Shown here in pieces: positions 26,482-64,000 of a stretch of 64,000 nucleotides of DNA (position 1 is its first letter; each line of letters starts with the position of its first letter). Source of the DNA: Rhodobacterales bacterium LSUCC0031 (GTDB taxonomy: Bacteria; Pseudomonadota; Alphaproteobacteria; Rhodobacterales; Rhodobacteraceae); the NCBI GenBank assembly GCA_015689735.1, contig WVSP01000001.1, positions 856,001-920,000 of the forward strand, in the 5' to 3' direction. The notes under the pieces were generated by a model. That model saw only the letters and a list, made by a program, of their open reading frames with translations, searched no databases and was not told where the DNA came from. A program made the translations under genes and the position numbers.

Positions 26482-26529
26482 CGTGCGAAAAACCCGGGTT
26501 TTTCGCACGGGAAAACCCGGGTTTTCCCG
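26482..26529. repeat. twin abutting palindromes after the UPF0173 gene
   Basis: Two perfect palindromes side by side. The first (26482-26509, 28 bases) and the second (26508-26529, 22 bases) share the core AAAACCCGGGTTTT. They begin three bases after the stop codon. They probably fold as terminators or RNA stabilisers, but the module recurs in the same place relative to two other genes (36023-36070 and 51287-51328). Confidence 0.8.
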
Positions 26530-55412: not shown

Positions 55413-55900
55413 TTACATCGGATCGAGTAAATAGATGGATGCTAATGCTACAAAACTTTGACCATGTAAGTGTAGCATTAGGGTATAATGGAGAGCTTGG
55501 AAAGACCTATCGAGATGGTCGAAAGCCCAAAGAACTCAGCTGATCATTCAAACTATTTATGAATCTGGGTGCGTCCGCCGATGCATAAGGCACTATAATG
55601 CAGGCTCGCAAAGCATGATTGGAAATACACAGCTCACTCATTTGCAACAATCTTGTTGAAACGGCGCGGGGGCAGCCACCATGCGCGCGGTTAAACCTGT
55701 TAGTACCTGATGCCCTTCATGCGAGGCGAGAATACAGTTGCTGCGCAAATGGCGCCTTACGCTGGGGTATGGCCAGCATCGCTTTCAGAATGACCCCTGT
55801 CATCAACGATGCTTGACACATAGACTGCGAGGTATTTCAGTCTGTCGCGTCATCCAAAATATGTGAGACGCACGAATTGCAGACGGCTAGACCCTTGTTG
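55413..55900. other. gene-poor 490-bp stretch after the recombinase
   Basis: No convincing gene on either strand. It holds the inverted repeat at 55442-55481, a TATAAT at 55484-55489 and a TTGACA at 55813-55818 ahead of the channel gene with a poorly spaced -10. Short frames of up to about 65 codons look like chance. The base composition is lower in GC than the flanks. Confidence 0.55.
55442..55481. repeat. inverted repeat upstream of the recombinase
   Basis: Perfect 10-bp arms, CTAATGCTAC (55442-55451) and GTAGCATTAG (55472-55481), separated by 20 bases, about 30 bases before the first recombinase start. A TATAAT follows at 55484. It could be the recombinase binding or crossover site, or an operator. 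Confidence 0.6.
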
Positions 55901-56827
55901 ATGCTGCGCAGTCACATCCATCAAATTCTGGATGGTGATCCCCTTACGGCACCGCCCTACGCAAGAATGATCAATGCGGTGATTATCGGTGCGATCGCTT
56001 TGAGCGTCGCGGTTGTCATTATCGAGTCGCACAATGCAACTTTCGAGGCGAATCGACCTCTTTTTTTAATTGCGGAGCGTCTGAGCGTTGCCTTCTTCAC
56101 CGTCGAATTCATCATTCGGCTTTGGGCGCATGGCGCAGCATTTGACGCCAAGGACGGTGGTGCGCGACGCGGAAGGCTTGCTTATCTTACAAGCTTTCAC
56201 GGCATGATCGATTGGATTTCAATCGCGCCGTTCTACTTGCAGATCATTTTCCCCGGTCTAGACCTGCTGATCCTGCGCGTTCTGCGATTGCTTCGGCTGC
56301 TCAAGATCTCGCGCTACAATACCGCGCTCGATGATCTCTTGCTTGCGGTCAAATCAGAGCGACATTCGTTTTTTGCGACGCTTTACATCATTTTTATCGT
56401 GACGATCCTGAGCTCCGCGATGATGTACTATGCTGAGGGAACGGCACAGCCAGAAAAACTGGCCTCTATTCCTCATGCGCTCTACTGGTCGTTGATCACA
56501 TTGACGACCGTGGGTTACGGGGACATTTCGCCTGTTACCCCGCTCGGCAAGGTTATCTCGGCTTTTACCGCCTTGCTTGGCGTTGCCACAGTGGCGATGT
56601 TTACAGGCATTATTGCTTCGTCGTTCTCTCGACAGGTGGCAAGACGCCGAGAGATTTTCGAGCAAGAGGTTGAAAAAGCATATCAAGATGGCATCGTGAC
56701 GAAGGAAGAAGATGCGTTTCTTGAAGAGTTGCAAAAGCGTTTTGACCTGTCTGATGACGAGGTCAACGAGATGAAGAAGCGTGCGGCAAAAGCTAAACCC
56801 GTGAAAGGTCACATACCGAGCATGTGA
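55901..56827 (+). CDS. voltage-gated-type potassium channel
   Basis: A 308-residue protein with an S1-S6 layout. A voltage-sensor-like S4 is rich in arginines (ILRVLRLLRLLKISR), the pore loop carries the selectivity filter TLTTVGYGD, and S6 follows (LLGVATVAMFTGIIASSF). A charged cytoplasmic tail of about 60 residues ends the chain. It should carry K+ across the inner membrane. ATG at 55901 is preferred to a TTG eight codons upstream. Confidence 0.9.
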   Translation: MLRSHIHQILDGDPLTAPPYARMINAVIIGAIALSVAVVIIESHNATFEANRPLFLIAERLSVAFFTVEFIIRLWAHGAAFDAKDGGARRGRLAYLTSFHGMIDWISIAPFYLQIIFPGLDLLILRVLRLLRLLKISRYNTALDDLLLAVKSERHSFFATLYIIFIVTILSSAMMYYAEGTAQPEKLASIPHALYWSLITLTTVGYGDISPVTPLGKVISAFTALLGVATVAMFTGIIASSFSRQVARRREIFEQEVEKAYQDGIVTKEEDAFLEELQKRFDLSDDEVNEMKKRAAKAKPVKGHIPSM

Positions 56828-57170: not shown

Positions 57171-57467
57171 TCAGGGATTTGTTTGTGTCTTGTTATAGTT
57201 TCTGCGGGCAAGTGCTGTTAACTTACCGCGCTTCCGGGCAGTTTGCATCACTTTCTCAAGCTCGGTGACAAGGACGGCATTATCGCTAGCGGCTTCGTGC
57301 AAAGCGGCAATCAGCGCGGGTGAGCGCCCCGCTTTGGCAGATGGGATTGCGTCAAGAAACCGACGCCGTTCCTCGATCAAACGCATCATGCTTTCAACTG
57401 CGCCAACGGAAACGGTTTCGCGAATCTGCGCATTCAGCCTGATGAGGTGTTTCGCATCCTCTGACAT
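57171..57467 (-). CDS. FliT/FlgN-like small helical protein, unknown
   Basis: A 98-residue, highly helical, charged protein (beginning MSEDAKHLIRLNAQIRETV, with MMRLIEERRRFLDAI). Its size and helical make-up recall flagellar export chaperones FliT and FlgN, but no sequence motif proves it. It lies in the flagellar block, on the same strand as fliS. AGG precedes the ATG. Confidence 0.6.
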   Translation of the reverse strand: MSEDAKHLIRLNAQIRETVSVGAVESMMRLIEERRRFLDAIPSAKAGRSPALIAALHEAASDNAVLVTELEKVMQTARKRGKLTALARRNYNKTQTNP

Positions 57468-57689: not shown

Positions 57690-58061
57690 TTGCTCGATCC
57701 GAACCTGTCATTGCCACTTCCGACGCTTCGTCCCAACCCGCCAGTTCCGGGGGCGGCGCAAAGCCTTGCGCATGCAGGGGTTGCAAGAGTCATGCCAGAC
57801 ATGCGGCAAACGCTTGAGGGCGTTTCGCCCGCATTGGCACTAGAGCGCAATAAAAGATATGAATCGTACCGCGCCGAAGTGACGATTTACCATCCCGCGC
57901 TTGGCCCATCGGCAATTGATACAGAGAATGCAATCATGGCTCGCGCGCTTTTGTCGCCAACCTTTGTGCATGATAGTGCGGCGACGCGCATGGCGCGGGT
58001 ATCAACGATGCCCAACACGGCCTTACCGCGTTTTGGTCGTACGGTCGATCTCTGGGCTTAG
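57690..58061 (+). CDS. unknown protein in the flagellar block
   Basis: A 123-residue protein, Pro-rich at the start (LPLPTLRPNPPVPG), then a mixed region and a Met/Arg-rich end (TRMARVSTMPN, PRFGRTVDLWA). No ATG is in frame between the upstream stop and TTG 57690; AAGG lies ten bases before the TTG. It is the only plus-strand gene among minus-strand flagellar genes. A sigma-54-like sequence lies upstream. No family recognised, and it could be shorter (ATG at 57792). Confidence 0.45.
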   Translation: MLDPNLSLPLPTLRPNPPVPGAAQSLAHAGVARVMPDMRQTLEGVSPALALERNKRYESYRAEVTIYHPALGPSAIDTENAIMARALLSPTFVHDSAATRMARVSTMPNTALPRFGRTVDLWA

Positions 58062-58075
58062 TGCAATGAGCGCGA

Positions 58076-58576
58076 TCAGGTCAGATCGTTCAAGCTGTCA
58101 AGCAAGCTGACTTCGACATCAGGCAGATCGGTGATCCAATCGCCATTTTCGATCTGCTTCCACGTCCAGGTCGATGGTGCGGCCAAGCTGGGCTTTGATC
58201 GCAACAGGAAGAAAAAGGGCCGGAAGCTCTTGATCAATTGCTCGACGTGGTAATCTTCTGAGCGCGTTCCATCGAGGGCTGAGGAGAATAGCCCTTTGAT
58301 GCGACGCGGCTCACCATTCTCAAGGCGGGTGATACGACCAAACGCATACGAGCGCAAAACGGAGTCTGCATCATCGGCCTCGGCTTCGGACAGGACGCGT
58401 AGAAATCCTTCTGCGCTCTGTTCGATCAGATCCGAGCCAATCTCGGCATAGCGTTCCGACAAAATCTGCGCGTATTTCCGCGCGAAAAGATCAAGCCCAA
58501 GGGGCGATGCCAAATATCGTTGTGCGACAAGGGCCACTGTCGCAGACACAAGCCATTCTGGGCAGAACTTTGACAT
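58076..58576 (-). CDS. unknown protein next to fliS
   Basis: A 166-residue protein without membrane helices or a signal peptide. It has a helical middle (FARKYAQILSERYAEIGSDL) and a C-terminal part with FFFLLRSKPS and WTWKQIENGDWITDLP. I do not recognise the family. A good GGGAG precedes the ATG, which lies 24 bases after the fliS stop, so it is co-transcribed with fliS and a flagellar role is likely. Confidence 0.75.
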   Translation of the reverse strand: MSKFCPEWLVSATVALVAQRYLASPLGLDLFARKYAQILSERYAEIGSDLIEQSAEGFLRVLSEAEADDADSVLRSYAFGRITRLENGEPRRIKGLFSSALDGTRSEDYHVEQLIKSFRPFFFLLRSKPSLAAPSTWTWKQIENGDWITDLPDVEVSLLDSLNDLT

Positions 58577-58600: not shown

Positions 58601-58996
58601 TTAGGCGCCTGCCCCCCCCGCTTTGTTTCCAATCCCCTCCCATGCTTGAATGATTTCGTCAAGCAAGACGACGCAAGTGGCAAGGTTGTGATCGGTCTTG
58701 CGCGAGAATGCCTTCAGCAGTTGTTGGCGGCAGTATTCATAAAGGCGGTACAGATTCTCGGCGATTTCCCCACCGCGCGTGAAATCGAGGCTGCTTTGCA
58801 GGATGTAGATCGCCGTGAATGCATTGCTAAACGCGGTGCGCAGCTTTGACGCCGTATTCGCTGGATCGGCGATCTTGCGCATGTTCTTGTTGAGTTCCTG
58901 CATCACGATCAAGATCGTCGTATGCGGATCAGAGACATCGTTCATCTGCACCTTCTGGTCTTGGATATACATGGAGCGCGCGAGAACGAGGTTCAT
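58601..58996 (-). CDS. fliS: flagellar export chaperone FliS
   Basis: A 131-residue helical protein with the FliS pattern: YILQSSLDFTRGGEIAENL followed by YRLYEYCRQQLLKAF. FliS binds flagellin in the cytoplasm and keeps it from polymerising before export. Start options are 58996 and 58945 (MNDVSDPHTT). Neighbours on the same strand are an unknown gene on each side. Confidence 0.85.
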   Translation of the reverse strand: MNLVLARSMYIQDQKVQMNDVSDPHTTILIVMQELNKNMRKIADPANTASKLRTAFSNAFTAIYILQSSLDFTRGGEIAENLYRLYEYCRQQLLKAFSRKTDHNLATCVVLLDEIIQAWEGIGNKAGGAGA

Positions 58997-59056: not shown

Positions 59057-59452
59057 TTAGTTGCCAAACTGCTGTCGCAGCGTCCGTGTGATCATGTTCT
59101 GACGCTCGCTCGACATGCAATCAGCGACCAGCGCCACCTCGCGGGATGCTTTCTCGTCGTAGCCTGCATATTGGATCGCCGGATAGGCCGGATCGATCGC
59201 AAGGCGCAGGATTTCGCCGCGCTTCAGCCGCATGTTTGCAACGCCATTGCTAAAGCGCGCTGTGCGTCCACTTTCAGGCGCATAGGCGATGAAATAGGTG
59301 TCTTCCACCGGGCATGAATTGCTTAAGGTCACGCGCACATCGATCAGGCCATCGCGACCACCACGATCGAACAACCCAAGCCATGCCATGGTAAGGCCGG
59401 CCACGCTCAGGATTACCGCCAAAAGCAAGGCACCGATCAAGTATGGGTTCAT
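59057..59452 (-). CDS. membrane-anchored protein of unknown function, sigma-54 promoter
   Basis: A 131-residue protein with one N-terminal membrane helix (YLIGALLLAVILSVAGLTMAW) and a periplasmic part with two cysteines (NSCPVED, VADCMSS) and a RTARFSNGVANMRLKRGEIL segment. AGGAGAG lies just before the ATG at 59452. A near-perfect sigma-54 promoter sits at 59484-59499, 30 bases upstream. It heads the fliS transcript. No family recognised; a flagellar or motility accessory role is inferred. Confidence 0.75.
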   Translation of the reverse strand: MNPYLIGALLLAVILSVAGLTMAWLGLFDRGGRDGLIDVRVTLSNSCPVEDTYFIAYAPESGRTARFSNGVANMRLKRGEILRLAIDPAYPAIQYAGYDEKASREVALVADCMSSERQNMITRTLRQQFGN

Positions 59453-59483
59453 AGAGCTCTCCTGCGGCTGGGACGACACGTTT

Positions 59484-59499
59484 TGCAAGAGCCGTGCCG
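59484..59499 (-). promoter_or_regulatory. sigma-54 promoter of the unknown gene-fliS transcript
   Basis: On the minus strand the sequence reads CGGCACGGCTCTTGCA, which matches TGGCACG-N4-TTGCW at every consensus base but the first. The -24 GG and -12 GC are ten bases apart. The transcript would begin near 59474, about 22 bases before the ATG. Confidence 0.8.
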
Positions 59500-59595
59500 A
59501 AACTGCGGCGATGCGTACTCAAATCTCGCCACGCCCTGTCAAGTTTACGGCAAAGCTTACGTCAAGCTGCGCGACGACGGGCGCCAATTTTCCGA

Positions 59596-59623
59596 CAGTG
59601 GGTATTTCAGCGGATACCCACTG
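59596..59623. promoter_or_regulatory. putative enhancer: perfect 10-bp inverted repeat between divergent sigma-54 promoters
   Basis: CAGTGGGTAT (59596-59605) and ATACCCACTG (59614-59623) are perfect reverse complements around an eight-base spacer. The site lies about 95 bp from each sigma-54 promoter, the usual distance for an upstream activator site. It could bind a FleQ-type partner of the adjacent FleT-like protein. Confidence 0.65.
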
Positions 59624-59714
59624 CCTTTGCAGCGTCAGCCGTTAGAAAAAATAGTGTTTAAAAACAGTAATTTGAACGATTTCCTCACGAATTGAGAGAG
59701 ATGGGCCACCGCCT

Positions 59715-59729
59715 TGGCCTGGTTCTTGC
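59715..59729 (+). promoter_or_regulatory. sigma-54 promoter of the fleT-fliE-fliF-fliG transcript
   Basis: TGGCCTGGTTCTTGC has TGGC and TTGC with GG and GC ten bases apart, matching the -24/-12 consensus at its invariant positions. Transcription would start near 59741, about 36 bases before the GTG at 59777. Confidence 0.7.
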
Positions 59730-59776
59730 CTTTCTTGATGGCGTGCGTGTCTGTGCAAGATCGCAAGGGGGCAGGG

Positions 59777-60955
59777 GTGAGCAAAATTTTCATAGATCGG
59801 ACGGTTTTCGCGACTGCGGAGAACCTGACGGACATGATCGGCAAGCGGGGCCTTGCGGTGCAGACGGTTGACGGCTGGCCGTCCGAACTCGCAGAGAAGT
59901 CTCCCGTCCTCGTGATGTGTGCGAAAGCCGAGGCTGCCTTGGGTGGCAGCCAGAAAATGCTCGAACGCGCGCGCGGTTTGCGACCGTCCCGCGTCGTTGT
60001 GATTGACGAAGCCGCCGACAGGTTTGCGATCCGCAAAGAGTTGGAGGGCAAGCTTTTGCGCCTCGATGTCCCCGCAGCACACGCGCAGGGCGGCTATGCG
60101 CGAGCAATCGCGGTCGAAACTGTGTGTGCAGGCTTGTCTTCGATGATTGCGGCTGATCCGGCGAGCGCGCGCTTGATGGGCGTGGCCGATCGTGTCGCGC
60201 GCGCCGATGTCACGGTGCTGATCAATGGGCCGACAGGCACCGGTAAAGAGGTCTTGGCGCGTTTCATCCACACGCGCTCTGCGCGCGCCGATAAACCCTT
60301 TGTCGCGATCAACTGTGCCGCCATCCCCGAGAATATGCTTGAGGCCATGATGTTCGGTCATGAGAAGGGCGCCTTCACCGGGGCATCGGTTGCCAACAAA
60401 GGGCTCTTTCGCGCCGCTGACGGTGGCACGCTTTTGCTAGACGAAATCTCGGAAATGCCTATTGGCCTGCAATCCAAGTTGCTGCGGGTCTTGCAAGAGC
60501 GCTGCGTGACGCCGCTCGGTGTTCAAACCGAGATCCCTGTCGATGTGCGCGTAATTGCGACCACCAACCGTGACATGCCCGAGGAGGTGCGTCGCAACAG
60601 TTTCCGCGAGGATCTGTTCTATCGATTGAACGTATTTCCGTTGGAAACCTTGCCACTGCGCGACCGGCCGCACGATATCCTACCCTTGGCTGTTGGTTTG
60701 CTTCATCGCCATGCCGATACACCGATGGCTCTGCCATGGATAACACCTGAAGCCGTCGAAGTGCTGGAGCGGCACGATTGGCCGGGCAATGTGCGCGAGC
60801 TTGAGAATGTCATTCAGCGTGCCTTGGTGTTGCACATCGACGGATGCATCACACCCGCCGATATCGTGCTCGATACAGGGCGTTCCTTGCAAATGCGTCC
60901 AGCGTGGCTTGATCACCACGCCGCGCCGATCACTGGTAAGGAGCGTGTCGCATGA
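59777..60955 (+). CDS. fleT: FleT-like sigma-54 activator lacking a DNA-binding domain
   Basis: A 392-residue AAA+ enhancer-binding-type protein. The N-terminal 120 residues look like a degenerate receiver fold. Walker A is GPTGTGKEV (about residues 151-158), GAFTGA is near 198-203, and the Arg-containing FREDLFYRLNVFP follows. It ends soon after the ATPase domain with no Fis-type HTH. In R. sphaeroides, FleT also lacks an HTH and works with FleQ, and fleT lies before fliE. GTG at 59777 has AGGGGGCAGGG upstream; the longer frame would start inside the promoter. It overlaps fliE by four bases. Confidence 0.85.
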   Translation: MSKIFIDRTVFATAENLTDMIGKRGLAVQTVDGWPSELAEKSPVLVMCAKAEAALGGSQKMLERARGLRPSRVVVIDEAADRFAIRKELEGKLLRLDVPAAHAQGGYARAIAVETVCAGLSSMIAADPASARLMGVADRVARADVTVLINGPTGTGKEVLARFIHTRSARADKPFVAINCAAIPENMLEAMMFGHEKGAFTGASVANKGLFRAADGGTLLLDEISEMPIGLQSKLLRVLQERCVTPLGVQTEIPVDVRVIATTNRDMPEEVRRNSFREDLFYRLNVFPLETLPLRDRPHDILPLAVGLLHRHADTPMALPWITPEAVEVLERHDWPGNVRELENVIQRALVLHIDGCITPADIVLDTGRSLQMRPAWLDHHAAPITGKERVA

Positions 60956-61266
60956 CAACCATCGGCGGGCTCAAATATCAGGTTGATCAGACCCATCTGA
61001 AATCGCTCACTCGCGCGCAAGAAACGCTCGATGCAAAGCCAAGTGGTCCGGCATTCTCGGAACGATTGGCTGACGGGCTAAAGTCGGTCGCATCGGCGCA
61101 GAACGAAGCTTCGGCATTGCGGACTGCATTCGAGGCGGGCACCGAGCAAAACCTTGCAAAAGTCATGGTCGCCCAGCAGGTCTCCTCGCTTGGGTTCCAG
61201 TTGACACTGAACGTCCGAAACAAGGCGCTGAGCGCCTACAAAGACATCATGAACATGCCTGTGTGA
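60952..61266 (+). CDS. fliE: flagellar hook-basal body protein FliE
   Basis: A 104-residue protein with the FliE C-terminal motif (FEAGTEQNLAKVMVAQQVSS, LTLNVRNKALSAYKDIMNMPV). It joins the MS ring to the rod and is exported by the flagellar system. The start overlaps the fleT stop (ATGA at 60952-60955). Confidence 0.95.
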   Translation: MTTIGGLKYQVDQTHLKSLTRAQETLDAKPSGPAFSERLADGLKSVASAQNEASALRTAFEAGTEQNLAKVMVAQQVSSLGFQLTLNVRNKALSAYKDIMNMPV

Positions 61267-61320: not shown

Positions 61321-63057
61321 ATGGCACAGACCACTCAAAGCACGCAGATGAATCAAGGCGCGGCCTCGCGCGGGTCAGCACTTGTCCCTTCGGGTGGCAA
61401 CATGCTGGCGAGTTTGCGCAATGTCACCGCGCAGCCGGGATTTCAGCGCGCGATGCCGACGATCATCGCGGTGCTGGCGGTTGTCCTGGGGCTGGCGGCT
61501 TATCTTTACATGCGTGAACCCGCACGCACGACGCTTTATGCGTCGCTTTCCGAGGCCGACAAGGCCAATGTCGTTGATGCCCTTACAAATGCCGGTATCG
61601 CGGTCACTTTGGACCCTGCGACCGGCGATGTATTGGTGCCGGTGGGTGATTATCACCGCTCGCGGATGAGCCTTGCCGCACAAGGGCTGCCCAGTTCCGC
61701 ACCCGAGGGCTACGCAGCGCTTGGCGATATCCCGATGGGCACCTCGCGCTCGGTTGAGACGGTCCGCCTCAAGCAAGCCCAAGAAATCGAGCTGGCCCGT
61801 TCGATCAACGAAATTTCCGCCGTGCAAGCGGCGCGGGTGCATTTGGCTTTGCCCGAGCGATCGGCCTTTGTTCGTCACCAAGAGCCGCCAACAGCGTCGG
61901 TGTTCTTGCAACTTGCCTCGGGGCGGCGGCTTGATGAGGGGCAGGTCGAGGCGATCGTCAATCTCGTTTCGACCTCTGTGCCGGGAATGGCGCGCGAGAA
62001 TGTCACCGTCATCGACCAAACCGGGCGGTTGTTGTCGAAATCCCTCGACGATCCTGCCTCGATCTTGTCGGATACGCAGTTGCAGCATCGGATGCGGCTG
62101 GAAGGTATCTATCGCTCGCGGATCGAAAGCCTCGTGACCCCGATTGTCGGGCCGGGCAATGTCAACGCGCAGGTCAATATCGAGATCGACTTTACCCGCA
62201 GTGAGATTACCGAAGAGCGGGTCGATCCAGAAGGAACCGCGCTGCGCAGCGAGCAAAATACACTTGACGTTGCGGCCAATGCCGAAGCACGCGGTGTCCC
62301 CGGCGCCACCTCGAACACGGCCCCGACAGAGGCCGAGCTCGCCAACGACTTGGCGTCAACCGCCGGTGGTGGCGCCGCGACCGAGAACCGTTCAAGCAGC
62401 GAGTTGCGCAACTACGAGGTCAGCCGCCGGGTCTCGACCACGATGGCGCCCTCGAACCGTATCATCAAGATTGATGCCGCTTTGCTGTTGCGCACCCAGA
62501 TGGTGATCGACCCCGAGACAGGGCTTGAGCGCCCGCAAGACATGACGCCCGAGGCGATCGCCGATATCGAGCGGCTGGTCTCAAGCGCAATTGGCCTGAA
62601 CCCTGCGCGCGGTGATACGCTGACCGTGACCGCCAAGCCGTTTGTCTCGACCCTGGAAGGCGTATCTGTCGCCTGGTTCCAAACCGATTGGATCGAGGAA
62701 CTTGCCAAGCAGATCGTGACAGTGCTGTTGTTGGGGGTGATCACCCTTGGCGTGATCAGACCGCTTCTGAACCGTGTCCTCGTGCCTTCGGGCGGATCGG
62801 GAATGGGCCATGGTGGCTTGACCGAGGAAGAAGCCGAAGCGCTGGAGTCTGTGGAAGTGGCCGATGGCGAAACGTTGGAAGATATCAAGGCCAAGCTCAA
62901 GCCCAAGAAATCCAACATCTCTTTGGAAATGCTTGATACCGCGAACACCTATGACGACAAAGTCGCTGTTATCCGCATGATTGTGAGTGATGAGGCGGGC
63001 CGTGTGTCCAACGTGTTCAAGCAAATGATGAAAAAAGAACTCGATCAGAAAGCCTGA
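61321..63057 (+). CDS. fliF: flagellar MS-ring protein FliF
   Basis: A 578-residue protein with two membrane helices (about 45-65 and 455-480) and a large periplasmic region between. Ring-building motifs are visible, such as MTREPART-like MREPARTTLYASLSEADKA, ALPERSAFVRHQEPPTASVF and RQ-rich segments. The C-terminal tail (about residues 530-578) binds FliG. It forms the base of the flagellar basal body. The ribosome binding site is weak. Confidence 0.95.
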   Translation: MAQTTQSTQMNQGAASRGSALVPSGGNMLASLRNVTAQPGFQRAMPTIIAVLAVVLGLAAYLYMREPARTTLYASLSEADKANVVDALTNAGIAVTLDPATGDVLVPVGDYHRSRMSLAAQGLPSSAPEGYAALGDIPMGTSRSVETVRLKQAQEIELARSINEISAVQAARVHLALPERSAFVRHQEPPTASVFLQLASGRRLDEGQVEAIVNLVSTSVPGMARENVTVIDQTGRLLSKSLDDPASILSDTQLQHRMRLEGIYRSRIESLVTPIVGPGNVNAQVNIEIDFTRSEITEERVDPEGTALRSEQNTLDVAANAEARGVPGATSNTAPTEAELANDLASTAGGGAATENRSSSELRNYEVSRRVSTTMAPSNRIIKIDAALLLRTQMVIDPETGLERPQDMTPEAIADIERLVSSAIGLNPARGDTLTVTAKPFVSTLEGVSVAWFQTDWIEELAKQIVTVLLLGVITLGVIRPLLNRVLVPSGGSGMGHGGLTEEEAEALESVEVADGETLEDIKAKLKPKKSNISLEMLDTANTYDDKVAVIRMIVSDEAGRVSNVFKQMMKKELDQKA

Positions 63058-63111: not shown

Positions 63112-64000
63112 ATGCCCGAAGCCGCCACGACCACCGTCGAAGAAGAGGTTCGTCTTTTTGACACCCTCACGGGGACACAAAAATCGGCTATCTTGATGAT
63201 GCTCTTGGGCGAAGACGAAGCCGCCGAGATCCTAAAGAACCTGACCCCGCGCGAGGTGCAGCACCTTGGGGCGGCGATGTATTCGGTCCAAGGCGTCGAT
63301 CAGGCCACGGTCAATTTCGTGCTCGATGAATTCTTGGCCATCATCAAGCAGCAGACCAGCATCGGGCTTGGGGCTGGTAACTATATTCGCAACGTGCTGA
63401 CCAAGGCGCTGGGCGGCGACAAGGCCCAATCTGTGCTAAGTCGGATCACGCCTGCCTCTTCCGAGCGGCCGATCGATATTCTCGACTGGATGGATGCGCG
63501 CGCGATTGCCGAGTTGATCATCGACGAACATCCCCAGATTGTTGCGCTGATCATCTCGTATCTCGACTACGGCCTCGCCGCCGATGTGCTCGGGCTTTTG
63601 CCACACGAGCTGCAACCCGAGGTCGTGGCCCGTATTGCGACCCTCGAAACCGTTCAGCCCGACGCCGTTCGCGAGCTTGAGCGCGTAATGCAGCTCAAGT
63701 TCAAGGCCAATACGACGCTGCGCGCCTCGCAGATTGGCGGTGTTAAGGCCGCGGCCAAGATCATGAATTTCACGAAGACCGCGATGGAACAGCGGATCAT
63801 GAAGGACATCAAGAAGGTCGATAAGGATCTGATGACCGCGATCCAAGACAATATGTTCGTCTTCGACAACCTCGTGATGTCGGATGATCGGTCGCTTCAG
63901 ACCTTGCTGCGTTCGATCGATACCGATGTGCTGGTTCTGGCCCTCAAGGGCGCGGACGAGGTTCTGCGCGAAAAGCTCTTTGGGTGTATGTCCACCCGTG
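63112..64000 (+). CDS. fliG: flagellar motor switch protein FliG, cut by the window edge
   Basis: The first 296 residues of FliG are present. The N-terminal FliF-binding domain (TGTQKSAILMMLLGEDEAAE), the middle armadillo-like domain (EHPQIVALIISYL, IATLETVQPDAV), and the start of the C-terminal motor domain (VFDNLVMSDDRSLQTLLRSI, VLALKGADE) can be seen. It forms the rotor ring and makes torque with MotA. GGAGGAG lies eight bases upstream of the ATG. The 3' end lies beyond the window. Confidence 0.96.
   Translation, partial: MPEAATTTVEEEVRLFDTLTGTQKSAILMMLLGEDEAAEILKNLTPREVQHLGAAMYSVQGVDQATVNFVLDEFLAIIKQQTSIGLGAGNYIRNVLTKALGGDKAQSVLSRITPASSERPIDILDWMDARAIAELIIDEHPQIVALIISYLDYGLAADVLGLLPHELQPEVVARIATLETVQPDAVRELERVMQLKFKANTTLRASQIGGVKAAAKIMNFTKTAMEQRIMKDIKKVDKDLMTAIQDNMFVFDNLVMSDDRSLQTLLRSIDTDVLVLALKGADEVLREKLFGCMSTR

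Follow-up and report, generated by a model that had tools for sequence, protein, structure and literature searches.

The window, a stretch of 64,000 nucleotides from the genome of Rhodobacterales bacterium LSUCC0031 (2.98 Mb in 7 contigs, about 96% complete), opens a flagellar cluster that extends about 55 kb further and includes both rpoN and a gene for a FleQ-like activator. Apart from rpoN, fleQ, fliE, and fliS, the names of the cluster members, such as flagellin, flhA, motA, and fliD, are our assumption, made from position. On the basis of FleT, the nearest named relatives are Roseicyclus, Marinibacterium, Rhodobacteraceae metagenome assemblies, and one unplaced Proteobacteria assembly. 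The region studied here is an intergenic control region of 324 bp (59453-59776), bounded by the ATG at 59452 on the minus strand, taken as the start of the divergent gene, and by the GTG at 59777 on the plus strand, taken as the start of fleT (it follows AAGGGGG; in its longest form the frame would start at TTG 59714). The features of the locus are the following:

58076..58576, minus strand: 166-aa protein after fliS, conserved beside fliS
58601..58996, minus strand: fliS, flagellin export chaperone (PF02561, E 4.3e-17)
59057..59452, minus strand: 131-aa protein, first gene of the predicted divergent transcript, kept at this place in L005, L007, L009, and L008
59484..59500, minus strand: predicted sigma-54 promoter TCGGCACGGCTCTTGCA for the 131-aa gene-fliS-166 aa transcript (score, counterparts in relatives)
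59583..59596, no strand assigned: FleQ-type box GCCAATTTTCCGAC, probable shared activator site (conservation, sequence likeness)
59596..59623, no strand assigned: perfect 10-bp inverted repeat with an 8-bp spacer, exact CAGTGGGTAT-N8-ATACCCACTG
59637..59696, no strand assigned: stretch rich in A+T (68%), separating the box from the fleT promoter (composition)
59714..59730, plus strand: predicted sigma-54 promoter TTGGCCTGGTTCTTGCC for fleT-fliE-fliF-fliG (conservation, position)
59777..60955, plus strand: fleT, sigma-54 activator with an AAA+ domain and no HTH match (open frame, domain search)
60952..61266, plus strand: fliE (PF02049)
61321..63057, plus strand: open frame that we take to be fliF, from position
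63112..64000, plus strand, continuing beyond the window end: open frame that we take to be fliG, from position

Searched against Pfam and NCBIfam, the 131-aa protein gave zero matches at E 0.01 and the 166-aa protein gave no family match; FliS also matches TIGR00208, under the cut-off of that model. Among the 26 loci compared (duplicates included), the 131-aa gene, fliS, and the 166-aa gene are divergent to fleT in L005/L115, L007/L157, L009, and L008, and the whole arrangement is kept by these four relatives only. L115 is the same region as L005 and L116 the same as L007, while L006 and L007 are near kin. At other loci fliS is divergent to fleT without the 131-aa gene (L138 and L139, both at about 1.2 kb, L144, and L153), or a fleQ-like gene is found there instead (L145, L147, L148, L154, and L155). 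The 131-aa gene was found in 5/390 genomes of the order, host included. A search of 389 genomes for further close relatives gave seven with a match at 1e-125, none of them new.

Other elements were observed around these genes. Homologues of the 131-aa protein lie away from fleT in L165 and L167, and in L167 the adjacent frame resembles, by eye, an ion channel; the window itself also encodes an ion channel (55877-56827). A conserved open frame of 123 aa with no family match (57690-58061, plus strand) is convergent with the 166-aa gene in 11/26 loci and stands beside fliS in SAR116-type loci. Downstream of fliS, a 98-aa protein (57171-57467, minus strand), also with no family match, is possibly a FliT- or FlgN-like chaperone, judging by eye. 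Upstream of its gene, inside the 123-aa frame, there is a sigma-54-like site with one mismatch (TGGCATGACTCTTGC, 57783-57797, minus strand). Finally, positions 26482-26529 are densely packed with perfect inverted repeats that overlap one another and are based on AAAACCCGGGTTTT-like sequence.

A first-pass annotation, made from the letters of this DNA, had proposed an outward-facing sigma-54 promoter on each strand, and this part of it agrees with our predictions: both -24/-12 sites carry GG-N10-GC, face outward upstream of both genes, and appear conserved. The sigma-54 score by itself was discarded as evidence because chance matches are too frequent. Indeed, TGGCAC-N5-TTGC at ≤1 mismatch has 9 sites in the window versus 7.65 expected, and at a score of at least 0.86 the number of sigma-54-like sites in the 60-kb flagellar stretch is 35, versus 16, 35, and 21 in three shuffles. 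Each promoter being unremarkable by score, the support comes from position and conservation. For the plus promoter, 12/17 columns are invariant in the alignment of the window, L115, L007, L009, and L006, and 37 of the 38 listed upstreams, duplicates counted, have a plus-strand site that precedes fleT by 21-63 bp (the lone exception is L119, whose fleT start falls outside the fetched stretch). In local alignment, the shuffles (out of 300) as good as or better than the plus promoter were 1 for L005, 0 for L007, 2 for L009, 0 for L006, and 3 for L008. The corresponding values for the minus promoter were 0, 45, 6, 241, and 127, with the L006 sequence ending short of the site. The minus-strand counterparts score 0.87 in L005, 0.82 in L007, 0.95 in L009, and 0.92 in L008, and their alignment support is good in L005 and L009 and weak in L007 and L008. 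Both promoters have counterparts in the four relatives with this order of genes, although those of the minus-strand promoter are less secure.

Minus-strand sigma-54-like sites are not confined to loci with the divergent 131-aa gene: one is present, for example, in the SAR116-type locus L010 (0.95 at -261), whose divergent gene is another sigma-54 activator gene. At two loci with a divergent fliS, the 450 bp scanned held no minus-strand site of at least 0.78 (L153, scanned as L102) or none suitably placed (L144, scanned as L093). The idea that each promoter uses a different sigma factor, suggested by the base at -11 (C vs A), was dropped because a single rpoN was found.

The inverted repeat between the promoters is exactly as first described, a perfect 10-bp palindrome (59596-59623) with an eight-base spacer, and its distance from each promoter site, given as about 95 bp, was measured as about 97 bp (minus strand) and 92 bp (plus strand). 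As a DNA hairpin it reaches -9.6 kcal/mol (z -4.06), a value equaled by 1/200 shuffles. Such a repeat is not exceptional: a perfect 10-bp repeat with a spacer of ≤20 occurred in 42/5000 simulated intergenic regions of the same length and composition; the whole window contains 21 raw repeat matches, grouped into 7 places, and 10 simulated windows contained 0-7 raw matches each. Since neither the sigma-54 sites nor the 10-bp repeat is strong evidence alone, comparison with relatives was needed.

The palindrome occupies a single place in the genome, and the three next best places have 3 mismatches in 16 bases, like a control pattern. Its recurrence near flagellar promoters of related genomes, for which the first-pass annotation had suggested a search, was not observed: at ≤3 mismatches in 20 it is absent from the 12 other genomes of the genus, 5 of which carry fleT, and its best fits in 32 other fleT upstreams have 8-10 mismatches in 20, compared with 7-10 in 20 shuffles of one of these upstreams. 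In the alignment of the window with L115, L007, L009, and L006, only 3/20 columns of the arms are invariant, one of them common to the box. The shuffles as good, out of 300, were 185 for L005, 80 for L007, 272 for L009, 0 for L006, and 282 for L008. L006 retains GGTATTTC..GGATAC, a partial likeness with short arms and a different spacer, and its near kin L007 is without the right half. Half sites at ≤1 mismatch are missing from 12 of the 13 other flagellar control regions, the sole exception being one half site upstream of fleQ. On the grounds of uniqueness and non-conservation, we rejected the palindrome as the FleQ/FleT operator that it had been proposed to be; it is unconserved in the relatives, yet FleQ, where found in near relatives (two of them), has identities of 79% and 77%. 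A terminator or attenuator was ruled out from coordinates alone, because the palindrome lies upstream of both predicted starts and neither transcript should contain it. The palindrome is probably a chance or lineage-specific sequence, and possibly the site of a local regulator.

The FleQ-type box adjoins the palindrome, with an overlap of one base. Its other strand reads GTCGGAAAATTGGC, near the Pseudomonas FleQ consensus GTCaNTAAAtTGAC, as given in PMC6120874, and near the core GTCAAT-N2-ATTGAC, as published in PMC10723142. In the alignment of the window, L115, L007, L009, and L006 (L006 and L007 being near-identical kin), 12/14 columns of the box are invariant. The degenerate pattern GYCRRWWWWYYGRC has exactly one exact match in each of L005, L006, L007, L008, and L009, and out of 300 shuffles, none was as good as the box for L005, L007, L009, and L006, with 59 for L008. 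One of two control stretches also aligned well, with L007 (2/300) and L006 (3/300) at a different place, so the local-alignment test alone is imperfect.

The pattern was fixed after viewing the near relatives and L117 and L118, before scoring the other upstreams. It is present at ≤1 mismatch in 22/25 more distant fleT upstreams (shuffle mean 1.15, maximum 5), which are not independent because L010, L011, L013, L014, and L016 resemble one another, and L018 resembles L019. Exact matches occur in 4/25 (shuffle mean 0.06), and the reversed pattern gave 0 exact matches and 2 at ≤1 mismatch in the same upstreams. This count leaves out the window, L005-L009, the duplicates L087, L115, L116, and L120, the pattern sources L117 and L118, and L119 (start outside the fetched stretch). 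A stricter pattern (19/24 at ≤1 mismatch) was fixed after the first results, and 22/25 is the fairer count. The best-box positions vary widely among fleT upstreams, for example -115 in L094 and -355 in L104.

Over the whole flagellar cluster the box pattern is barely enriched, with 12 matches at ≤1 mismatch in the 60-kb stretch, several of them intragenic, versus 3-10 in five shuffles. At ≤2 mismatches it was found in 5/14 flagellar control regions (fleT, fliP, rpoN-fliC, flhA-flgA, and fliD) and not found in the other nine, e.g., fliK, motA, and flgF. At the fliO/P promoter, a box with 1-2 mismatches (genome position 926754) lies about 99 bp above the sigma-54 site and is also seen in L169 and L173, with no box at the L172 fliO/P promoter. 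Another with 1-2 mismatches (genome position 960885) lies between flhA and the flhA/flgA promoter, and also in L170. Given 5/14 regions and a bare enrichment over 60 kb, it is mainly the fleT upstreams that speak for the box. In Pseudomonas fluorescens F113, according to PMC6120874, the FleQ motif has hundreds of occurrences outside bound regions and is called unreliable.

The distances from the box to the minus- and plus-strand promoters are 91.5/126.5 bp in the window, 90.5/125.5 in L005, 91.5/126.5 in L007, 76.5/130.5 in L009, and 58.5/104.5 in L008. A conserved box, FleQ-type by sequence likeness, is thus found within looping distance of both promoters. The earlier proposal of one site for both transcripts is consistent with this conserved sequence, as is FleQ control of the region, with the candidate site moved from the palindrome to the adjacent FleQ-like box. 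On the fleT side, the A+T fraction of 59637-59696 is 0.68 here and 0.72-0.90 at equal distance from fleT in five relatives.

The genome contains fleQ together with rpoN, the latter as one Sigma54_DBD gene. In the FleQ-like protein (C1:969970-971109), an AAA+ domain that begins at residue 25, with no Pfam match before it, is accompanied by an HTH_8 domain (E 7.9e-10). FleT gave an AAA+ but no HTH match in the domain search; an AAA+ domain, no DNA-binding domain match, and a gene placed ahead of fliE are the traits of a FleT-type co-activator. The searches for FleT (1e-100) and FleQ (1e-80) match the same 6/13 genomes of the genus, and FleT identity is 78-80% in L005, L006, L007, and L009. As described in PMC7277832, FleQ with a second sigma-54 (RpoN2) drives the fleT-fliEFGHIJ operon in Rhodobacter sphaeroides, and PMC11999139 describes Cereibacter sphaeroides FleT as without a DNA-binding domain and joining FleQ. 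Separately, a FleQ-type box with 1-2 mismatches stands before rpoN (C1:934614, locus L121; also in L169, L172, and L173). In these three relatives the scoring gave no forward sigma-54 site at that place, a hint that FleQ may control its own sigma factor in a different way.

The reading that we favor, with a probability of about 0.7, is a divergent pair of sigma-54 promoters belonging to the Rhodobacteraceae Fla1 type, in which FleQ, and later FleQ/FleT, at one box activates both promoters. FleQ would bind the pseudopalindromic box at 59583-59596, which has a -24 element at a distance of about 91 bp on the minus strand and about 126 bp on the plus strand. DNA looping, which the A+T-rich stretch toward fleT may facilitate, would then bring FleQ into contact with the sigma-54 RNA polymerase of one or the other promoter. 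In this way FleQ would switch on fleT-fliEFG and, in the opposite direction, the transcript of the 131-aa gene, fliS, and the 166-aa gene, and FleT, once made, would join FleQ as in C. sphaeroides.

That the palindrome itself could be the FleQ or FleQ/FleT enhancer is very improbable: it is a 10-bp dyad without mismatch, lies halfway from one promoter to the other, and has a strong hairpin and one base in common with the conserved box, but its single genomic place, next best matches no nearer than a control pattern, 0/12 result in the genus, shuffle-level fits in 32 fleT upstreams, and half sites missing from 12/13 other control regions argue against this role. We consider it unlikely that it is a lineage-specific site of another regulator, modulating FleQ at the adjoining box, e.g., by competition. 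The 1-bp overlap between a perfect dyad and the box and the partial likeness in L006 (0/300 shuffles as good) fit such a site, which is opposed by the short arms and different spacer of L006, the right half lost in L007 (80/300 shuffles as good), a genome in which no second copy was found, and the frequency of such repeats in simulated regions, about 0.8%, which is not small over many regions.

Rather unlikely, too, is that FleQ acts on the fleT promoter alone, with a fortuitous sigma-54 site on the minus strand and a fliS transcript that uses another promoter. Coherently with it, sigma-54-like matches are common by chance (16-35 per 60-kb shuffle), similar scores are reached at loci such as L010, whose divergent gene is a different one, and no good minus-strand site was found at the divergent fliS of L153 or L144. 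On the contrary, minus-strand sites occur at the equivalent place in L005, L007, L009, and L008, with 0 (L005) and 6 (L009) shuffles as good out of 300, although 45 in L007 and 127 in L008. Starting from the shared box of the favored reading, a quite doubtful extension is that one FleQ box makes FliS appear together with the early basal-body operon, well before flagellin, and that a palindrome newly arisen in this lineage, at the edge of the box, lets a second regulator veto FleQ at both promoters simultaneously.

In the Fla1 system of C. (Rhodobacter) sphaeroides, as covered by PMC7277832 and PMC11999139, fleT precedes fliE and the following genes behind a sigma-54 promoter, and FleQ has an HTH domain that FleT is without, as here. 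In contrast, there are four rpoN genes there and one was found here. The divergent 131-aa gene-fliS transcript would share the region here. The Pseudomonas aeruginosa FleQ boxes, in PMC10723142 and PMC6120874, are 14-bp pseudopalindromes with an A+T center, like the present one. Half of our box, however, reads TCCGAC and departs from the Pseudomonas core ATTGAC, and FleQ here, in contrast to that of P. aeruginosa, is without a Pfam match ahead of AAA+. The fliL2p-fliF2p promoters of R. sphaeroides presumably do not use sigma-54. They share with the arrangement proposed here the use of one activator site for two outward promoters but, according to PMC6180460, the protein bound there, close to the -35 region, is CtrA. 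Among the papers that the literature search listed, none has fleT and fliS together (a paper naming only those two would be missed), and the upstream activation passage that was looked for was not found in those of a second search.

The divergent arrangement is tidy and largely ordinary. It shows how a perfect palindrome, however striking, can act as a decoy when the conserved site next to it looks weaker. With the box, the fleT operons of Rhodobacteraceae and SAR116-type bacteria gain a concrete and conserved candidate FleQ site. Here two sigma-54 promoters may depend on a single enhancer, tying the early operon to the flagellin chaperone fliS.
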